Positions 46,336 to 54,828 of a stretch of 64,000 nt of DNA are shown one piece after another. Every line of letters starts with the position of its first letter. Within the stretch, counting starts at the first letter, position 1. The DNA is from Antrihabitans stalagmiti. Its GTDB lineage: Bacteria > Actinomycetota > Actinomycetes > Mycobacteriales > Mycobacteriaceae. The notes under the pieces are model-generated. The model was not told where the DNA came from, did no database searches, and saw nothing but the letters and a program-made list of their open reading frames with translations. The translations under genes were made by a program, and so were the position numbers. Location of the stretch: assembly GCF_016482825.1 (NCBI RefSeq), contig NZ_JAEMNV010000009.1:1-64000 (forward strand). The letters run 5' to 3'.

Positions 46336-46377
46336 CGTGAGTCCTTTCGGAGGTCGGGCCCTCCGAAAGGACTCACG
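46336..46377. terminator. Perfect 18-6-18 hairpin at a convergent gene end
   Basis: CGTGAGTCCTTTCGGAGG, loop TCGGGC, then the exact complement. It starts 16 bp after the stop of the GGDEF-EAL gene and contains the stop codon of the opposite SDR gene (46373-46375) in its right arm. A bidirectional terminator is the simple reading. The symmetry means both transcripts carry the same structure, so the two 3' ends could also pair. Confidence 0.8.
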
Positions 46378-47272
46378 ACCGGCGTAGCCGGGCCTCGACT
46401 TTGCGAATCAGCGCGTGCACATTCTCGTCGCCGGCCATCTTCCGGTCGATGACGACGTTCGCAGCTCCACGCAGCATCGCGTAGGGCTGCCATGACGCCG
46501 GTGCGATGGTGCGCGCGGCGCGCTCACCGATTCCGTCGGCGACGGACTTGGCCGCAGCGTCGGGACTGATTCGCTGATTCAGCGGCCATGGCAGCAACTC
46601 GGCAACTTCGCGTCCCAACTCGTCGTCGTCGAGAGTGTCGTGGGTCATCGCCGTCTCGACGATGCCGAAGTAGGCGACGCCTGCACTTGCGCCGACCGCA
46701 GCAAGCTCGATGCGCAGCGCTCTGCCCAACTGCTCGACGGCAGCCTTGCTGATCATGTACGGCGAACCGCCTGCACCCGGCGCGAACGCGGCCGCAGACG
46801 ACACGACGACGACGTGACCGCCGTGCTCGATCACCTGCTCCAACGCGGGTCGCACCGTATTGAAGACACCTGTCAGATTGATGTCGATGACGCGGTCGAA
46901 GGCTTCCTCGTCGATCGTGCGCAGAGTGGCAGGCGGCGGGGCGATTCCAGCGTTGGCGACAACGACATCGAGTCGGCCGAACCGGTCGACGATGCGCGCG
47001 ACAACCGCTGCCATGGCGGGACGATCTCGAACATCAGCAGCGATCGCAACGGCGCGCTCGCCGAGGACCGCTGCTGCGGCCTCGGCCGAGTGCTCGTCGA
47101 CGTCGACGATTGCGACCGAAGCACCACGCTCGTAGAGGATTTTCGCCAACGCAAGACCGATGCCCTGACCCGCGCCGGTGATGAGAACGACCTTGCCGTC
47201 GACGTCGTAGGCCGGATTGTTGCCGAACGGGCTGGTTCCCAAGAACGGAATTGTGTTCAGCGAGAACATCAT
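46373..47272 (-). CDS. Short-chain dehydrogenase/reductase, last gene of the oxidative operon
   Basis: 299 aa from the ATG 47272, overlapping the stop of the monooxygenase gene (ATGA) with GAGGAG in front; the frame open to 47581 is antisense to that gene. TGAGQGIG cofactor motif (about 33-40), NAG at about 109-111, catalytic Ser in VVVSSAAAF and YMISK as the YxxxK triad. The extended N-terminus (MMFSLNTIPFLGTSPFG) is common in mycobacterial SDRs that work with FMO-type monooxygenases (SadH/Rv3085-like). Probably oxidises an alcohol produced by the pathway, inferred from context. Confidence 0.9.
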   Translation of the reverse strand: MMFSLNTIPFLGTSPFGNNPAYDVDGKVVLITGAGQGIGLALAKILYERGASVAIVDVDEHSAEAAAAVLGERAVAIAADVRDRPAMAAVVARIVDRFGRLDVVVANAGIAPPPATLRTIDEEAFDRVIDINLTGVFNTVRPALEQVIEHGGHVVVVSSAAAFAPGAGGSPYMISKAAVEQLGRALRIELAAVGASAGVAYFGIVETAMTHDTLDDDELGREVAELLPWPLNQRISPDAAAKSVADGIGERAARTIAPASWQPYAMLRGAANVVIDRKMAGDENVHALIRKVEARLRRS

Positions 47273-48774
47273 CGGCTCCTCACCAGGTTCGGCTGCCCGA
47301 CCGCTGTGGTCTGGCTCGGCAGCAGGTCGTAGGCGTCGCGGTCGAATCGACTTGTGCGATCGCGGTATTCGAAGCTCCAACTCGGATACAGGCCGGCGTT
47401 TTTGCCGTCCGCGGTGCGGTAGTAGGTCGTCGAACAGCCACCGGTGAGCCAGACCGTGTCGGCGCTGCGCTCGTCGACTTCGTCGAGAAATGCCTCCTGC
47501 GCTTCGGCACGTACCTCGACTCGGTCGAGTTTCTCGTCGCGCATCGTGACGAGGGCATCGACGATGTAGCGGATCTGGCATTCGATCATGTAGATCGCCG
47601 ACTGATTTCCGACTGCGCCGAACGGACCGAGTGTGCTGAAGAAGTTCGGGAACCCGGCGACCGCGGTGCCGAGGTAGCTCTGTGGCCTGTCGGCGTAGAG
47701 GTCCCCGATGGACTGACCGTCGCGACCGTGGATGCGGCCGTAGACGGCAGGTGGCACCACGAATCCCGTGCCGTAGATGATGGTGTCCACCTCGTGCTCG
47801 ATACCGTCGCGGGTGACGATCGAGTGCTCACGAATCTCGGCGATCGCATCGTCGATGACGTCGACATTGTCGCGAGCGAGAGCGGGGAGATAGTCGTCGG
47901 AGAAGATCGCCCGCTTGCACCCGATCATGTAATCGGGTGTGAGACGCGCACGCAACGTGGAATCCCGTACTTGCCGGAGCAATTGCAAACGTCCGAGGAA
48001 TTCGTATGGATGGCGGAAACCCTTGTTCACGAACCCGACGAGACCGAAACCTTCGATGCCGGTGTAGTACCCGCCGCGCAACGCCTTTCCAAGTATGGGG
48101 AGCTTGCGCAACAGCGCACGCTCGATGCGCGAGGTCGTCCGATCCATCCGAGGAATGATCCAGGGCGCAGAGCGCTGAAACACCAGCAGGCGGTCGACCT
48201 TCGGCTGGATCTCGGGCACGAATTGCACTGCCGAAGCTCCGGTTCCGAGCACCGCGACCCGCTCCCCCGTCAGGTCGTGGTCGTGGTCCCAGTGCAACGA
48301 GTGAAATGCTGTGCCCTCGAAGGTATCCAGGCCAGGGAAGTCCGGGTACCGGGCATCGCCGTACACCCCGGCGGCGGAGATCAGGATATCGGCGTTCAGC
48401 ACGCCGCTGTTGGTCTCTATTCGCCAGTTCCGCGATTGCTCCACCCACGACGCATCGACGACCTCGGTATCGAATCGCATGTGCGCGACGACGTCGTGTC
48501 GTTGTGCGACAGTGCGGAGATAGTCGAGGATTTCCGGTTGCTGCCCATAGGTTCGTGACCAGTCCGGGTTAGGCGCGAACGAATAGCTGTAGAGGTGCGA
48601 CGGAACGTCGCAGGCGCAGCCCGGGTAGGTGTTGTCACGCCAGGTGCCACCGAGTTCGGCGGAGCGTTCGAGGACGACGAAGTCCTCGAAACCGGCCTCG
48701 CGCAGCTTTATTGCCAGTCCGATTCCGCCGAATCCGGCGCCGATGACGGCGATGTGCACGCGAGTGTCGGTCAT
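47269..48774 (-). CDS. Baeyer-Villiger-type flavin monooxygenase
   Basis: 501 aa from the ATG 48774, which overlaps the aldehyde dehydrogenase stop (ATGA). FAD Rossmann GAGFGG (12-17), the GGTWRDNTYPGCACDVPSHLYS region of Baeyer-Villiger enzymes, and the type I fingerprint FxGxxxHxxxWD at residues 152-163 (FEGTAFHSLHWD) are intact; the NADPH motif GTGASA is at 177-182. It would insert oxygen into a ketone or oxidise an aldehyde or heteroatom. The M. tuberculosis MymA/EthA proteins are relatives. Middle of the six-gene operon. Confidence 0.92.
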   Translation of the reverse strand: MTDTRVHIAVIGAGFGGIGLAIKLREAGFEDFVVLERSAELGGTWRDNTYPGCACDVPSHLYSYSFAPNPDWSRTYGQQPEILDYLRTVAQRHDVVAHMRFDTEVVDASWVEQSRNWRIETNSGVLNADILISAAGVYGDARYPDFPGLDTFEGTAFHSLHWDHDHDLTGERVAVLGTGASAVQFVPEIQPKVDRLLVFQRSAPWIIPRMDRTTSRIERALLRKLPILGKALRGGYYTGIEGFGLVGFVNKGFRHPYEFLGRLQLLRQVRDSTLRARLTPDYMIGCKRAIFSDDYLPALARDNVDVIDDAIAEIREHSIVTRDGIEHEVDTIIYGTGFVVPPAVYGRIHGRDGQSIGDLYADRPQSYLGTAVAGFPNFFSTLGPFGAVGNQSAIYMIECQIRYIVDALVTMRDEKLDRVEVRAEAQEAFLDEVDERSADTVWLTGGCSTTYYRTADGKNAGLYPSWSFEYRDRTSRFDRDAYDLLPSQTTAVGQPNLVRSR

Positions 48775-50279
48775 GATCGGGTCCTTCCGTGCAACAGCTT
48801 CACAGCAACGGCGACGATGCTGTCCGTGCGCTCCGAACGCGCGAAGGTCGTCAACGCCAACGGTGACGGGAAACGCTGTCGCGTAATCGCTTTCGCGTAG
48901 GTGAACTCCTTCAGACCTTCCGGTCCGTGCACCCGACCGAAACCGGACTGACCCACGCCGCCGAGCGGCAGGGACGGAATCGTTGCATAGGCGACGAAGG
49001 CGTTGATCCCGACACCCCCGACCCGAATGCGGCGGGCGATGTCGGTCGCATTCTTCTTCGCAAAGACGGTGGCTCCAAGTCCGTACCGACTTGCGTTGAC
49101 GAGTTCGATCGCCGTGTCCATGTCGGCAACCTTGGCGATGGTCAGCGTCGGTCCGAAGGTTTCCTCTGTGACGGCAAGCGACGTTTCGGGCACATCGACC
49201 AGGACGGTCGGCTGCACGAACTGTCCCGCAACGGTGTTCAGCCCACCGAGTACCGCTCGGCCGCCCTGCTCGAGCGCGTCGGCGATGTGCCGACGGATGA
49301 CGTCGACCTGGCTCGGCATGGTGATCGGACCGATCTTGGATCCGCTGGGTGCACCGGCGTGGATCTTCGCGGAACGTTCCACGACCTCGGTGACGAACGC
49401 GTCGTACACGGCCTCGTGAACGTAGATGCGTTCGACCGCGAGACACGTCTGACCGGCGTTGGACAACCCACCCCACACCGCAGCATCGGCTGCGGCGCGG
49501 ATATCGGCGTCGGAATCGACGATAAGTGCGTCCTTCCCGCCGCATTCCATCAGCACGGGTGTCAACGTCTCGGCGCACGTCGCCATGACCTTCTTGCCCG
49601 TCGCGGTGGACCCCGTGAAGCCGATTTTGTCGACGCCCGAACGACACAGGGCTGCACCGGTTTGCGCGCCGCCGGTGAGGAGTTGCAGCACCGGTTGTTC
49701 GGGCACGGCTCGCCCGAACGCGGCGACGAGCCAGGCTCCGACGCCGGGTGTGTATTCGCTGGGTTTGAAGACGACGGCGTTACCTGCGGCGAGCGCGAAC
49801 GACACGGAGCCGAGCGGTGTGAACACCGGATAGTTCCACGGACCGATCACGCCGACCACGCCGAGCGGTGGAAACTCCACGCTCGCAGCCTGATTGAGAG
49901 TCATCAAGCTGGAGGGGACCGAACGGGATCCGAGCACCTTGCTCGCGTTTTTGCCCGCCCACGCCAAGTGCTCCAACGCCATTGCGATTTCGAGTTTCGC
50001 ATCCGAAACCGGCTTACCCATCTCGGAGTTGATCAGGGCAGCCAACTCGGCTGTGCCGCACACTATTTCGGAGCGCCAGCGATCGAGACGAGCTGCCCGC
50101 TGCGGGAAGGACAAGCTCGCCCACCACTGCGATGCAACACGCGCACGGGCAACAGTCGCCGCGACGTCCGATTCGGTGTGGATGGGAAACGTGCCGACCA
50201 CGTCGCCGGTCGCGGGACTCGTCACGTCGAAGGCGGTGTCGATCCGAACTGCCTTCTTACGAACTGGTGTTTCGGTCAT
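48771..50279 (-). CDS. Aldehyde dehydrogenase
   Basis: 502 aa. Oxidises an aldehyde to the acid with NAD(P)+. The general base Glu is in LMECGGKDALIV, the nucleophile Cys in GQTCLAVERIYV, the cofactor motif GFTGSTATGKKV, and the proline-phenylalanine element EETFGPTL. Overlaps by four bases both with the acyl-CoA ligase gene before it and with the monooxygenase gene after it. The sequence groups with succinate-semialdehyde/medium-chain types; the length and C-terminal extension (about 30 residues ending LLHGRTRS) do not define the substrate. Confidence 0.93.
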   Translation of the reverse strand: MTETPVRKKAVRIDTAFDVTSPATGDVVGTFPIHTESDVAATVARARVASQWWASLSFPQRAARLDRWRSEIVCGTAELAALINSEMGKPVSDAKLEIAMALEHLAWAGKNASKVLGSRSVPSSLMTLNQAASVEFPPLGVVGVIGPWNYPVFTPLGSVSFALAAGNAVVFKPSEYTPGVGAWLVAAFGRAVPEQPVLQLLTGGAQTGAALCRSGVDKIGFTGSTATGKKVMATCAETLTPVLMECGGKDALIVDSDADIRAAADAAVWGGLSNAGQTCLAVERIYVHEAVYDAFVTEVVERSAKIHAGAPSGSKIGPITMPSQVDVIRRHIADALEQGGRAVLGGLNTVAGQFVQPTVLVDVPETSLAVTEETFGPTLTIAKVADMDTAIELVNASRYGLGATVFAKKNATDIARRIRVGGVGINAFVAYATIPSLPLGGVGQSGFGRVHGPEGLKEFTYAKAITRQRFPSPLALTTFARSERTDSIVAVAVKLLHGRTRS

Positions 50280-52108
50280 CGGGCCGCAACCTTTCCGTTG
50301 GACGGTTCGTGAATCCCGGCGTCCGGGCGATCCGCGTAGAGCGCGTCGATTTCGGCGGAGTACTTCGTCGAGATCGGCTTGCGGCGCAATTTCATTGTCA
50401 GCGTTATCTCTTCACCACCTGCCTCCCAGAAGGTCGGAAGTACGGTGAACCTCTTGATCTGCTCGACGCGCGACAGCTTTTCGTTGCCGGCCGCCACACC
50501 GTCTGCGATGGCCGCGACGAGTTCGGGGTCGACGGCCAACGCGGCCGCGCTTGCGTCGTGCAGGCCTCGCTGCGCCGCGTAGACGGGTGCGGTTTCGGCG
50601 TCGAGTACGACGAGCGCGGTGTTGTAGGCGCGCCCATCCCCTATCACCGCCATTGCCCCGATCAGCGGAGCCGCCGCCTTGATGGTGTTCTCGATGTTCG
50701 CCGGTGACATGTTCTTACCGGAGGCGTTGATGATGAGTTCTTTCTTGCGGTCGACGACACGCAGATACCCGTCTTCGTCGACGGTGATGATGTCGCCCGT
50801 GTGCAGCCACCCATCGGCGTCCACTGCCTCTGCCGTCTTTGCCGGGTCACCGCGGTAGCCCTTCATCACCAGCGGACCGCGGACCAGGAATTCCCCGTCC
50901 GCGGCGATCTTGGATTCCATACCCGGTAGCAGACGACCGACCGTACCCAGTTTCGAATCGCGTGGATGCGACGCGCTGGCAACGCAACTCAGCTCCGACA
51001 TGCCCCAGATCTCGGCAATGGCGATCCCGATTCCTTCGAAGAAGCCGAGCGTCTCGGGCGGTATCGGGGCCGCACCGGACATGGCCCAGCGGAGTTGGTC
51101 GAAGCCGAGTTTGGCACGCAACTTCGACAGCACCAATTCGTCTGCCTTCGCCCACTCGGCGGCGACCTCGTCCGACATCGGTGCACCGGCAAGCGCTGCC
51201 GCGCTACGTTTGGCTGCGACGGACATCGCCCACTGCATACCCTGCTTCTTCGCCGGATCGGGTTCGTTCGCGATGCCGAATTCGATGGCAGCTTTGAGCT
51301 TTTCCCATACGCGCGGTACTGCGCCCCAGATCGTGGGACGCAGCTCCGGCAGTGCTGCCGCAATCTGGCGCGGGTCGGACACCGACGTGATCTGAGTACC
51401 GAAGATCTCGTGCAGATACAGCGCGGTGAAACGGTCGGCGATGTGCGCGGTCGGCATGAACGACGTGATGCGGTCGCCGAATTCGATGTCGAGGACCGAG
51501 GCGAACGCGTACGCCTCCGCGAGCAGATTGGCATGCGTGGACTCGACGCCTTTGGGATTGCCCGTCGTTCCCGAGGTGTAGATCAGCGTCGCGACGTCGT
51601 CGGGTCGGACTGCACGCCAGCCGGCGTCGAAGTCGTAGTTCGCGTCGCCGCGCGCGATCAACTCGTCGACGGTGCTTGTGCCCTCGACCGAGCCGTCGAC
51701 AACGATGATGTGCTCGATCGCGACACCGCTTGCGCGAATCACGTCCACGTACTGTGCCTCGCAGACGACTACCCGGTTGCCCGCGTTCGAGAAGACGTAG
51801 CGCAGTTGTTCGGCGGCAAGTGTGTTGTAGACCGAGAACGACGTCGCGCCGACCATCTGGGCGCCGATCTCCAACGGGTAGAACTCGATTCGGTTGGCCA
51901 TCATCAACGCGACGGTGTCGCCACGGCCGATGCCCAATGCCCCCAACCCCGCTGCGACCTTTCGGACTCGGTCCGCATAGTCGCGCCACGTCATCGTGTG
52001 CGCGTCGCCGGGGGTCCGTAGCGCGACTGCGTCGGGATCGATTGCGGCCGTGCGCATAAAAGCCTCGCACAGCGTCGTCGGTCGGTCGATCGTCGAATTT
52101 TCGGTCAT
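50276..52108 (-). CDS. Long-chain acyl-CoA ligase (FadD type)
   Basis: 610 aa AMP-forming synthetase that activates a carboxylic acid with ATP and CoA. The P-loop-like A3 motif is YTSGTTGNPKGV, A5 region is GMSELSCVAS, and the hinge/DRKKE motif (VVDRKKELIINASGKNMSPANIE, in two parts) is followed by the catalytic Lys region (LTMKLRRKPISTKY). Closest in feel to FadD11/FadD15-type ligases of mycolata. Within the operon it would activate the acid made by the aldehyde dehydrogenase, whose gene overlaps its stop. Confidence 0.93.
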   Translation of the reverse strand: MTENSTIDRPTTLCEAFMRTAAIDPDAVALRTPGDAHTMTWRDYADRVRKVAAGLGALGIGRGDTVALMMANRIEFYPLEIGAQMVGATSFSVYNTLAAEQLRYVFSNAGNRVVVCEAQYVDVIRASGVAIEHIIVVDGSVEGTSTVDELIARGDANYDFDAGWRAVRPDDVATLIYTSGTTGNPKGVESTHANLLAEAYAFASVLDIEFGDRITSFMPTAHIADRFTALYLHEIFGTQITSVSDPRQIAAALPELRPTIWGAVPRVWEKLKAAIEFGIANEPDPAKKQGMQWAMSVAAKRSAAALAGAPMSDEVAAEWAKADELVLSKLRAKLGFDQLRWAMSGAAPIPPETLGFFEGIGIAIAEIWGMSELSCVASASHPRDSKLGTVGRLLPGMESKIAADGEFLVRGPLVMKGYRGDPAKTAEAVDADGWLHTGDIITVDEDGYLRVVDRKKELIINASGKNMSPANIENTIKAAAPLIGAMAVIGDGRAYNTALVVLDAETAPVYAAQRGLHDASAAALAVDPELVAAIADGVAAGNEKLSRVEQIKRFTVLPTFWEAGGEEITLTMKLRRKPISTKYSAEIDALYADRPDAGIHEPSNGKVAAR

Positions 52109-52133: not shown

Positions 52134-53231
52134 CTAGAGGTCGAGAACGAGTGGTCCGCCCACGGACCTCGAGACGCAGACGGCCATTGCGTCTTTACGT
52201 TCGGATTCGAGCAGGCTGTTGTCGCGATGCTCGACGCTGCCCGACAGCACTCGTACTGTGCAGGTCCCGCAGTAGCCCTGCTGGCACGAGTACGTGACGT
52301 CCGGCTTGCTGCGCCGGATTGCGGTCAACGCGGATTCCTCCGCACCGACCGACAGAGTCACGCCGCTGCGCCGCAGTTCCACGTCGAAGGCCGTGCCGCC
52401 GACCACCGGTGGCGCCGAAAACCGTTCGGTGTGAAGCGAACCCGAAGCAGCGATCGCCGACAACCTGCTACGCGCGGCGTCGAGAACGGGTGGCGGTCCG
52501 CACACGTATACGGCGCCGCCCGGTAGCGCACCATCGAGGAGAGCTGAGGTGTCGGGGATTCCGAACTCGGTGTCCGGTCTGATCTCGACGTCGCCACCGG
52601 TGTAGTGGGCGAGCTCGTTCAGAAATGGCATGCTGTCGCGCGATCTGCCGAGATAGACCAGGCGCCATGGTGTTCCGCGACGATCCGCTTCCTGCACCAT
52701 CGGCAGGATCGGGGTGATCCCGATACCGCCGGCAACGAACAGGTACGAGTCCGCCGTCACCATCCGAAACGCGTTGCGCGGACCCCTGATATGCAGCAGA
52801 TCGCCGACGGTCAGCGTCTCGTGCACTTCACGAGAACCGCCGCCACCGTCTCGAATATGCCGCACTGCAACGCGATAGCGGCTTCGATCCTGCGGATCGC
52901 CGCACAGCGAGTACTGGCGCTGCTTGCCGGATGGCAGAAACACATCGACGTGCGACCCGGGGCTCCAGATCGGCAGGTCCGCTCCATCGGGTGCAGCGAG
53001 GGTCAGACTGACGACGTCGTCGGCCTGCTCGATGATCTGCTCGATCACCAGGTTCATATCGAAGTCATTGTGACGCACTGGATTCGACCGCGACAGCAAT
53101 GGCGCGAACCTGCTGTCGGCGACGAGTCGGCGGTAGCCGCCGACGGCAGTTGCCACCAGCTTCACACTCGCCGGTATGGTTCCATCGGTCGGCGTCGCGA
53201 TTCGGGTGTCGCCCCTGATCAGTCCAGTCAC
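52134..53231 (-). CDS. PDR-type flavin/2Fe-2S reductase
   Basis: 365 aa from the GTG 53231, which overlaps the PF10118 gene stop (GTGA); the long open frame to 54173 is antisense shadow. Order: an N-terminal helical extension (about 1-55), flavin-binding barrel (RQYSLCGDP), NAD-binding lobe (LFVAGGIGITPILPM and YVCGPPPVL), and a C-terminal plant-type 2Fe-2S domain with CQQGYCGTC and a fourth Cys near AVCVSR. This is the phthalate dioxygenase reductase layout that supplies electrons from NAD(P)H to an oxygenase; the nearest oxygenase candidate is the overlapping gene. Confidence 0.92.
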   Translation of the reverse strand: MTGLIRGDTRIATPTDGTIPASVKLVATAVGGYRRLVADSRFAPLLSRSNPVRHNDFDMNLVIEQIIEQADDVVSLTLAAPDGADLPIWSPGSHVDVFLPSGKQRQYSLCGDPQDRSRYRVAVRHIRDGGGGSREVHETLTVGDLLHIRGPRNAFRMVTADSYLFVAGGIGITPILPMVQEADRRGTPWRLVYLGRSRDSMPFLNELAHYTGGDVEIRPDTEFGIPDTSALLDGALPGGAVYVCGPPPVLDAARSRLSAIAASGSLHTERFSAPPVVGGTAFDVELRRSGVTLSVGAEESALTAIRRSKPDVTYSCQQGYCGTCTVRVLSGSVEHRDNSLLESERKDAMAVCVSRSVGGPLVLDL

Positions 53232-54130
53232 GACGACTCCTGGCGCAACTCCGCATTGGCGGCAGGCGAGGTAGCGAGATAGCGCAGCGCCTGGTCGAGA
53301 CTGCCCATCGACGACGGGTGGAATCCTGGCTTGAGGTACACCGGAATCTCGGTGAGGAAATGCAGTCCGCTCGGAACGAGGCCACGCATTGCCGCACTCA
53401 CGAACTGGACCGGCCACGGCTTGCCCCTGTTCGGCGAGGGATCGTGGTTCACCAGGTAGGTGATGCTGGCGAACGTCAAGACCGCGAGTGTCGTACTTGC
53501 AAGAAGGGCGGTGCGGGCGCGTCGCGCGTAGCTGCCGTCGACATGGTGGTACACGTCGAAAACGACGCTGCGGTGCTCGACCTCTTCTGCACCGTGCCAG
53601 CGCAGCAGGTCGAGCATCATCGGGTGAATGCCCGCCTTGTCGAGTTCGTCGGCCTCGAGCAGCCACTGTCCGATGATCGCGGTGAAATGTTCGAGGGCGG
53701 CGAAGAGCCCGAGCCGTTCTTTGAGCCAAGCCTTCTTCGCGCGCCCGCTGAGACCGTGATCGGTGAGCACTTTGTCGATCAGATAGTTGATGGTGTCGAC
53801 CATCGGTTCGACGTCGAGTCCATGCTCGGTCAGATACGCCCGCACACCTTCGTGCGAGGACGCGTGCATCGCTTCTTGACCGATGAAGCCGACGGCCTCT
53901 TCGCGTAGGCGCTCGTCCTCGATGTAGGGAAGTGCGTCTGCGAGCGCTCCCGCCATCGCGCGCTCCGCCTCCGGGAGTACGAGGTGCATGAAGTTCCACA
54001 CCTGGGTGACCACAGGTTCGTTCGGAACATAGTGGAACGGCATTCCGTCCCAATCGAATTGGACGTCGCGCGCGGTGATCGCGTGTGCCTCTTCGTGCCG
54101 AGCCTGCGCCGTTGCAGTCTGCTTTGTCAT
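53228..54130 (-). CDS. PF10118 'metal-dependent hydrolase' with di-iron ligand pattern
   Basis: 300 aa from the ATG 54130 (MTKQTATAQARHEE); an in-frame start at 54160 would reach into the operator. Recognised as the PF10118 family, usually named metal-dependent hydrolase without biochemical proof. The residues follow the ferritin-like carboxylate di-iron pattern: Glu54 (LPEAERAM), E86xxH89 (GQEAMHASSHE), Glu147 (LEHFTAI), E183xxH186 (AEEVEHRSVV), in a protein predicted all helical. One hydrophobic helix (about 211-226) may anchor it. The reductase gene overlaps its stop by four bases, so the pair may be an oxygenase and its reductase rather than a hydrolase. First gene of the operon. Confidence 0.85.
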   Translation of the reverse strand: MTKQTATAQARHEEAHAITARDVQFDWDGMPFHYVPNEPVVTQVWNFMHLVLPEAERAMAGALADALPYIEDERLREEAVGFIGQEAMHASSHEGVRAYLTEHGLDVEPMVDTINYLIDKVLTDHGLSGRAKKAWLKERLGLFAALEHFTAIIGQWLLEADELDKAGIHPMMLDLLRWHGAEEVEHRSVVFDVYHHVDGSYARRARTALLASTTLAVLTFASITYLVNHDPSPNRGKPWPVQFVSAAMRGLVPSGLHFLTEIPVYLKPGFHPSSMGSLDQALRYLATSPAANAELRQESS

Positions 54131-54143
54131 ATTCACAAAATAC

Positions 54144-54196
54144 ACTGTTACAGTTTGCATAGCAATGTTGCATCTAGCGATCGGCGAATGTTACAG
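54144..54196. promoter_or_regulatory. TGTTACAG repeats between the TetR gene and the oxidative operon
   Basis: A palindrome ACTGTTACAGT at 54144-54154 and a second TGTTACAG copy at 54189-54196, 43 bp apart, in the 104-bp divergent gap. They are good candidates for TetR dimer sites controlling both directions. The A+T-rich stretch just before the 54130 start may be its -10 region. Confidence 0.55.
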
Positions 54197-54234: not shown

Positions 54235-54828
54235 GTGACCAGCAGTAACTCAGACCCCGCAACCGAGCGCATCCTCGATGCAGCGCTGCAGAGCTTCGAA
54301 GAGATCGGCATCCGACGGACGACGATCGAGGACATCGCGCGCCGCGCCGGGATCGAACGTGTGACGGTCTATCGCAGGGTCGGTTCCAAGGACGAGGTCG
54401 TCGTCGCGGTCATCGGGCGCGAGTCTGCGCGGTTGATTCTGGAACTCGTCGAGGCATCGAAGGTTGGCAACACATTCGACGAGCGGATCGTCCACGCGTT
54501 CACTGTTGTCATGCGCCACCTGTGGGGGCATGCCCTGGCCAATCGGCTGATTGCCCTCGAACCGGAAAGCGCGCTGCCGAGACTCACGACCGGCGGTACC
54601 GACGTGTTGGCGTCCGCTGTCTACGCCACGGTTGCGTTGCTGGAACAGTCCGTCGCCGATGGACTACTCACCGCAGCAGACGATTTCCCAGCGCGCGCAG
54701 AGGTCCTCGTTCGAATCATCCATTCGTTGATGATGACCCCTCGGGTGCATCTGGACCTGAGCGCAGACGAGCAACTGAAGGCCTTCGCACTGCGCTACAT
54801 CGTCCCGATCGCGTCGGGCCGAAGCTGA
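54235..54828 (+). CDS. TetR-family regulator of the oxidative operon
   Basis: 197 aa from a GTG. N-terminal helix-turn-helix: ERILDAALQSFEEIGIRRTTIEDIARRAGIERVTVYRRVGSKDEV in order, with the recognition helix RVTVYRRV. The C-terminal helices form the ligand pocket. Divergent from the PF10118-reductase-FadD-ALDH-FMO-SDR operon and sharing its only promoter region, so it is the probable repressor; the natural inducer would then be a pathway substrate or acyl-CoA. Confidence 0.92.
   Translation: MTSSNSDPATERILDAALQSFEEIGIRRTTIEDIARRAGIERVTVYRRVGSKDEVVVAVIGRESARLILELVEASKVGNTFDERIVHAFTVVMRHLWGHALANRLIALEPESALPRLTTGGTDVLASAVYATVALLEQSVADGLLTAADDFPARAEVLVRIIHSLMMTPRVHLDLSADEQLKAFALRYIVPIASGRS

Follow-up and report, generated by a model that had tools for sequence, protein, structure and literature searches.

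The window analyzed here, the first 64,000 nucleotides of the Antrihabitans stalagmiti contig NZ_JAEMNV010000009.1, carries on its minus strand an open reading frame (ORF) at 53228..54130 whose product matches the Pfam family PF10118 (Metal_hydrol; E-value 7.9e-72, 242.3 bits, curated cut-off 33.2). The 300-residue product ends at a stop codon, a second in-frame ATG at 54160 offers an upstream alternative to the start at 54130, and a plus-strand reading of the same interval runs into a stop. The terminal GTGA of this ORF overlaps by four bases the start of a gene for a reductase of the phthalate dioxygenase reductase (PDR) type, with Fer2, FAD-binding and NAD-binding Pfam domains. An earlier note on this DNA had given the ends of the ORF, its family, the overlap and the reductase type, all of which we recovered, and had proposed that the PF10118 protein is a di-iron oxygenase rather than a hydrolase. 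Our analysis leads to a similar view. Judging from fold, residue conservation, weak matches across families, and gene partnership, the PF10118 protein is quite likely a ferritin-like oxygenase with a di-metal site, most probably di-iron.

Table 1 The PF10118 gene, its proposed metal-site codons, and neighboring genes in the window
Feature	Position	Strand	Basis
PF10118 protein, proposed ferritin-like di-iron oxygenase	53228..54130	-	300 aa from ATG 54130
Codon of Glu56, proposed helix-1 ligand	53963..53965	-	Glu in 112/112
Q85 E86 x x H89, proposed second-helix motif (QExxH)	53864..53878	-	Q85, E86, H89 in 112/112
Codon of Glu147, proposed third-helix ligand	53690..53692	-	Glu in 112/112
H179 xx E182 E183 x E185 H186, proposed fourth-helix motif (HxxEExxH)	53573..53596	-	112/112
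GTGA, oxygenase-gene stop overlapping reductase start	53228..53231	-	Sequence
PDR-type reductase: flavin, NAD(P), C-terminal 2Fe-2S domains (RQYS, CQQGYCGTC)	52134..53231	-	Pfam, solved relatives
FadD11-type fatty acid-CoA ligase	50276..52108	-	NCBIfam NF038343, 1111.6 bits, cut-off 950
Aldehyde dehydrogenase	48771..50279	-	PF00171, E 1.2e-127; start overlaps ligase stop by four bases
Baeyer-Villiger-type flavin monooxygenase (start inferred)	47269..48762	-	FMO-like, Pyr_redox_3; fingerprint FEGTAFHSLHWD
Short-chain dehydrogenase (SDR; start inferred)	46373..47281	-	adh_short E 9e-48
Divergent TetR-family regulator	54235..54828	+	Pfam scan

Residue conservation was mapped on an alignment of 112 PF10118 members: the window protein, nine more encoded in its own genome, 13 from different genomes within the phylum, 80 genome-collection loci (the best 80 of at least 598 matching stretches), and nine proteins from plasmid records (picked from 74 matching records to give a varied set that avoided clinical isolates). 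The partial matches C1:19383 (L017/L034) and L031 were excluded from all counts, and L028 was also excluded from a 22-row alignment. E56, Q85, E86, H89, H93, E147, W178, H179, E182, E183, E185 and H186 are identical in every member, and H148 in 110. Of the six ligands named earlier, the five in E86xxH89, E147 and E183xxH186 are present as described and invariant, whereas Glu54 (codon 53969-53971, minus strand) is Glu in 56/112 members only. The earlier note had held that lack of conservation would refute it; this applies literally to Glu54 alone, and Glu56, which lies 200 degrees from Glu54 on an ideal helix, takes its place. Because Glu56 is invariant and Glu54 is not, we rejected Glu54 and assign the helix-1 carboxylate to Glu56.

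With this substitution the E-ExxH-E-ExxH order holds in all 112 members, but not as the two-histidine order of the R2 subunit of ribonucleotide reductase: the invariant H179, four residues before E183 and overlooked earlier along with Q85, H93, E182 and E185, makes it a three-histidine order, in favor of which the plain R2-type order was dropped. With helices taken from a structure model, the ferritin-like superfamily signature, E/D-ExxH-E-ExxH with one element per helix, is present. Since the residues are identical throughout the alignment, in which five members are Proteobacteria, the motif is not a product of chance.

The resulting order, E-QExxH-E-HxxEExxH, corresponds to that of the arylamine N-oxygenases AurF and CmlI (PF11583; 3chh and 5hyg), which have DExxH...E...HxxDExxH. 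PF10118 positions 56, 86, 89, 147, 179, 183 and 186 have spacings compatible with the AurF-family invariants 82, 113, 116, 164, 192, 196 and 199, and H179 supplies the third histidine of the AurF-type HxxxExxH, whose counterpart is invariant in 23/23 AurF-family rows. Unlike AurF and CmlI, the window protein has Gln rather than Asp preceding ExxH and a Glu in place of the Asp of the final motif, as well as the extra invariant H93 and E185; its gene also has a co-encoded PDR reductase and no amine gene seen beside it. H93, E185 and W178, invariant though they are, lie outside the AurF-like ligand set. R2 proteins have two histidine ligands, in contrast to the three of the PF10118 set, and are not known to pair with PDR reductases. 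The motif passages of PMC12101540 give QExxH and HxxDExxH for CylC-type dimetal halogenases, and by these published motifs alone the PF10118 order appears even closer to CylC and NocO than to AurF and CmlI: QExxH is common to both, and the last motif has Glu for Asp. NocO, which according to the same passages acts on an aliphatic fatty acyl chain, and CylC differ from the PF10118 locus in gene context.

Distant homology was queried by profile comparison. The hhalign P-value of PF10118 against the AurF family was 0.00041 (22 versus 23 rows), 0.0018 (81-row alignment) and 0.0017 (35 dereplicated rows); control families gave 0.23 (acyl-ACP desaturase), 0.41 (PaaA/PaaC), 0.15 (HD) and 0.62 (mpaB). 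The comparison profiles drew on 21 of 30 loci for AurF, 12 of 14 for the desaturase, 15 of 30 for PaaA/PaaC, 19 of 30 for HD and 20 of 30 for mpaB, with six incomplete loci dropped. Two of the four controls are themselves ferritin-like, and hhalign therefore misses some superfamily members. None of 300 column-shuffled profiles reached the real PF10118-AurF score of 30.0 (best shuffle 24.8, reversed profile 18.8). Upon realignment E56, E86, H89, H179, E182, E183 and H186 fall on matching AurF-family residues; without realignment (two settings) E56 is uncovered or one residue off its counterpart.

Scanning 22 members singly against Pfam at E-values up to 1, with HMMER filters that can lose weak matches, yielded five families besides PF10118 that two or more members hit: Rubrerythrin (3/22, best E 0.0065), AurF (PF11583; 3/22, 0.01), COQ7 (2/22, 0.0024), Ferritin_2 (2/22, 0.23) and PEP-utilisers_N (2/22, 0.037). 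Four of these are ferritin-like and none is a hydrolase family; nine more families were matched by single members. The window protein itself did not match PF11583 at E-values up to 1, and a 22-row profile search of the PDB returned just three weak, seemingly unrelated rows (best 0.61).

The structure model of the PF10118 protein is a predicted four-helix bundle, and its Foldseek matches are dimetal oxidases, R2 and R2lox making up nearly all rows listed. The bundle fragment, residues 48-194, aligns to AurF 92-238; if the ends are ungapped, H179, E182, E183 and H186 would land on H223, D226, E227 and H230 of AurF, and E56 on position 100, next to the AurF ligand E101. By fold and motif the protein belongs to the ferritin-like superfamily, and by the PF11583 cut-off it stands outside the AurF family. 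Following the bundle, residues 201-228 (window 53447-53530) form a strongly hydrophobic helix (19-residue mean 1.81) that may serve in membrane attachment, dimerization or substrate entry; a hydrophobicity peak above 1.6 occurs in 57/112 members, not always in this helix.

The second line of evidence is the reductase. Among solved structures it is closest in sequence to the reductase portions of P450 fusions (6kbh, 6laa), to 7ylr, and to phthalate dioxygenase reductase itself (2pia), which is of the same type. Known partners of PDR-type reductases include Rieske oxygenases and P450s, and a ferritin-like partner would be unusual. Multicomponent di-iron monooxygenases such as soluble methane monooxygenase (sMMO) and PaaABCE likewise join a di-iron oxygenase to a flavin/2Fe-2S reductase, as proposed here, and the window reductase gives below-cut-off scores against PaaE, BenC and MmoC models. 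They differ in that the window has a single small oxygenase gene, PF10118 lacks profile similarity to PaaA/PaaC, and the 2Fe-2S domain of the window reductase is C-terminal, as in PDR. Among nine window genes scanned against Pfam, none belongs to a family of multi-subunit di-iron hydroxylases or coupling proteins, for which the rest of the genome was not searched.

In the 80 genome-collection loci the reductase gene follows directly in 76, lies one gene further in three mycobacterial loci, and is absent in one; an in-frame start codon would permit the same four-base overlap in 41. These loci are the closest relatives, and 76/80 thus overstates the pairing for the family at large. In one of the three mycobacterial loci (L104) the intervening gene was scanned and encodes an alpha/beta hydrolase. 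When 44 dereplicated members, drawn from every source, were placed on a tree, all 26 rows with an adjacent reductase fell in one clade of 28 (support 94/91). Adjacency requires three changes on this tree, as compared to a mean of 14.1 upon shuffling, with 0/500 shuffles as low. The 16 rows outside the clade, which include six A. stalagmiti paralogues and three of the five members from Proteobacteria, have no adjacent reductase; the two further Proteobacterial members, nearer the clade, also have none adjacent. Within this genome the reductase adjoins three of eleven PF10118 matches, and weaker PDR-like genes (26-29% identity) occur elsewhere near three others. The paralogues L009, L010, L011, L013, L014 and L016 form a second large PF10118 branch without an adjacent PDR reductase.

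Downstream of the reductase the operon continues on the minus strand, with genes overlapping or separated by short gaps (Table 1). The earlier note had seen no other oxygenase beside the reductase, which holds for the directly adjoining genes but not for the gene run, where the Baeyer-Villiger-type monooxygenase, bearing the FxGxxxHxxxWD fingerprint, stands three genes on. Probing the 80 loci, of which 69 had full flanks, found SDR genes in 38, Baeyer-Villiger-type genes in 34 (22 with fingerprint), ligase genes in 11 and aldehyde dehydrogenase genes in eight. A Rhodococcus plasmid carries the same gene set plus acyl-CoA and 3-hydroxyacyl-CoA dehydrogenases, and on an R. fascians plasmid a gene annotated as limonene-1,2-epoxide hydrolase follows the reductase. 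Flavin monooxygenase (FMO)/Baeyer-Villiger-like genes also adjoin the reductase-less paralogues L011, L013 and L016; at L011 (9105-10920) a PF10118 tandem pair is followed by a Baeyer-Villiger-type gene and then an SDR gene. The mycobacterial locus L104 (1667-7862) reads carboxylate-reductase-like gene (AMP-binding + NAD_binding_4), PF10118, alpha/beta hydrolase, PDR reductase. Beyond the divergent regulator of the window, and preceded by another TetR-type gene, lies an mpaB/rubber-oxygenase-type gene (PF09995; 55099-56319), a family with 13 matches in this genome; none of the 80 loci has an mpaB-type gene, and this neighbor was rejected as a component of the system.

For the metal, the flow of electrons, the O2 chemistry and the substrate, we infer the following scheme. 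Four long helices would carry Glu56, E86xxH89, Glu147 and H179xxxE183xxH186, a three-His/four-carboxylate set like that of AurF, CmlI and CylC, with Q85 and E182 in the places of the AurF second-sphere Asp residues. Electrons from NAD(P)H would pass through the flavin and the 2Fe-2S cluster of the co-encoded reductase to the di-iron site, which would activate O2 and oxidize an organic substrate. Given the operon's gene content, the likeliest substrate would be an aliphatic or alicyclic hydrophobic compound. The simplest reading of the operon is a catabolic route, in which the product of hydroxylation by the PF10118 enzyme would be oxidized to a ketone by the SDR, turned into an ester or lactone by the Baeyer-Villiger enzyme and, through the aldehyde dehydrogenase and acyl-CoA ligase, converted to an acyl-CoA. 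A narrower version is tentative, and we think it rather unlikely: here the PF10118 protein, with its reductase, would be a di-iron hydroxylase of one subunit that acts on unactivated secondary C-H bonds. It would supply the missing first step of subterminal alkane (or terpenoid) breakdown and yield the secondary alcohol for the SDR and Baeyer-Villiger enzymes of the operon.

Several observations weigh against the oxygenase reading. The hhalign probabilities for PF10118 and AurF are low (15-35%), and E147 sits one residue off the AurF-family Glu in all four alignment settings. A single-sequence search found no PDB relative at E up to 1, the best Foldseek E-value was 0.014 with query TM-scores of 0.31-0.51, and the top score for the bundle fragment went to the copper protein CopM, so that a four-helix match alone is unspecific. 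No adjoining reductase is present in 18 of the 44 tree rows; among the 13 loci sampled elsewhere in the phylum it is adjacent in six, about 1 kb downstream in one, and outside the 1.5 kb flank in six. Finally, 39 of the 80 loci showed the oxygenase-reductase pair alone with no other probed pathway gene; the substrate proposal therefore rests on the Nocardia/Rhodococcus-type operons.

Some of these points bear on alternative identities. An identity as AurF-type N-oxygenase with an amine or hydroxylamine as substrate would fit the third histidine and the profile similarity, both of which lead to AurF/CmlI; we regard it as improbable, as position 85 is Gln, as in CylC, rather than the Asp of AurF, the window protein lacks a PF11583 match, and no amine gene was found among the nine window genes scanned. 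There is likewise little probability, in our estimate, that this is a di-metal protein of another kind, an R2lox-like oxidase, peroxidase or iron-handling protein beside a reductase that serves another oxygenase. The predominance of R2 and R2lox among the fold matches and the large share of the family without a reductase point that way; against it, the PF10118-reductase pairing is kept across many genera, with the possible overlap in about half of the 80 loci, and alternative oxygenases are less regular there (Baeyer-Villiger-type in only 34, mpaB-type in none; P450 and Rieske genes were not probed for).

The database name suggests a real metal-dependent hydrolase, for instance one cleaving esters or lactones from the neighboring Baeyer-Villiger enzyme. 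The earlier note considered this name without support, and we indeed found none in sequence or fold, but the name itself and the Baeyer-Villiger company, which extends to paralogues without a reductase, do point to hydrolysis. We nevertheless hold it very improbable: i) no Pfam hydrolase family besides PF10118 was matched by two or more of the 22 members at E up to 1, and the HD control was dissimilar, ii) the fold matches are dimetal oxidases, iii) a hydrolase would presumably have no use for a flavin/2Fe-2S reductase, and iv) a separate alpha/beta hydrolase stands beside the PF10118 gene in the two loci inspected (L104, L147). Least credible is a radical halogenase of the CylC kind acting on unactivated carbon, for although the motifs nearly coincide with those given in PMC12101540, no biosynthetic or carrier-protein gene was found among the nine window genes scanned, and Glu147, which occupies the site suggested to make room for chloride, is invariant (CylC relatives mostly keep this Glu too).

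Should the ferritin-like oxygenase reading be correct, an Actinobacterial and Proteobacterial family still called 'predicted metal-dependent hydrolase' would become one of O2-activating oxidation enzymes, and the PF10118 clade that carries its own PDR-type reductase would be a two-protein system open to immediate testing. On the evidence of sequence comparison and modeling, the PF10118 genes may encode unrecognized oxidation chemistry. A search of open PubMed Central (PMC), mainly of titles and abstracts, found none assigning an activity to the family, which does not imply absence in print; IPR016516, PIRSF007580, UCP07580, pfam10118 and COG3687, which we take to be labels of the family, did not occur in the open PMC papers searched. 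PF10118 itself turned up in a single one of these papers, PMC8960859, where annotation places it among protease groups. We propose that PF10118 may fill a gap in subterminal alkane oxidation: the proteomics account of Thalassolituus grown on n-C28 in PMC6304351 identified no specific subterminal alkane monooxygenase, and a 2025 study (PMC12449030) was unable to reproduce first-step alkane hydroxylation by LadA and noted similar published conclusions on AlmA.

Distribution of the family is patchy. PF10118 occurs in eight of the 149 genomes of the phylum sample, A. stalagmiti included; this 6.4 Mb genome has eleven matches each to PF10118 (one of them partial) and to the AurF family (PF11583), and the seven other PF10118-bearing genomes have one to four PF10118 matches each. 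At L010 (8293-10305) the PF10118 domain occupies 397-645 of a 671-codon stop-to-stop frame with no other Pfam match, the long frame reflecting either chance or an N-terminal extension. Two records are likely mislabelled or contaminated: L057, titled as a Bifidobacterium breve metagenome-assembled genome, holds a gene of 59% identity within an operon that resembles those of actinomycetes, and L036 has Rhodococcus in its record title and Cyanobacteriota as its tree label.
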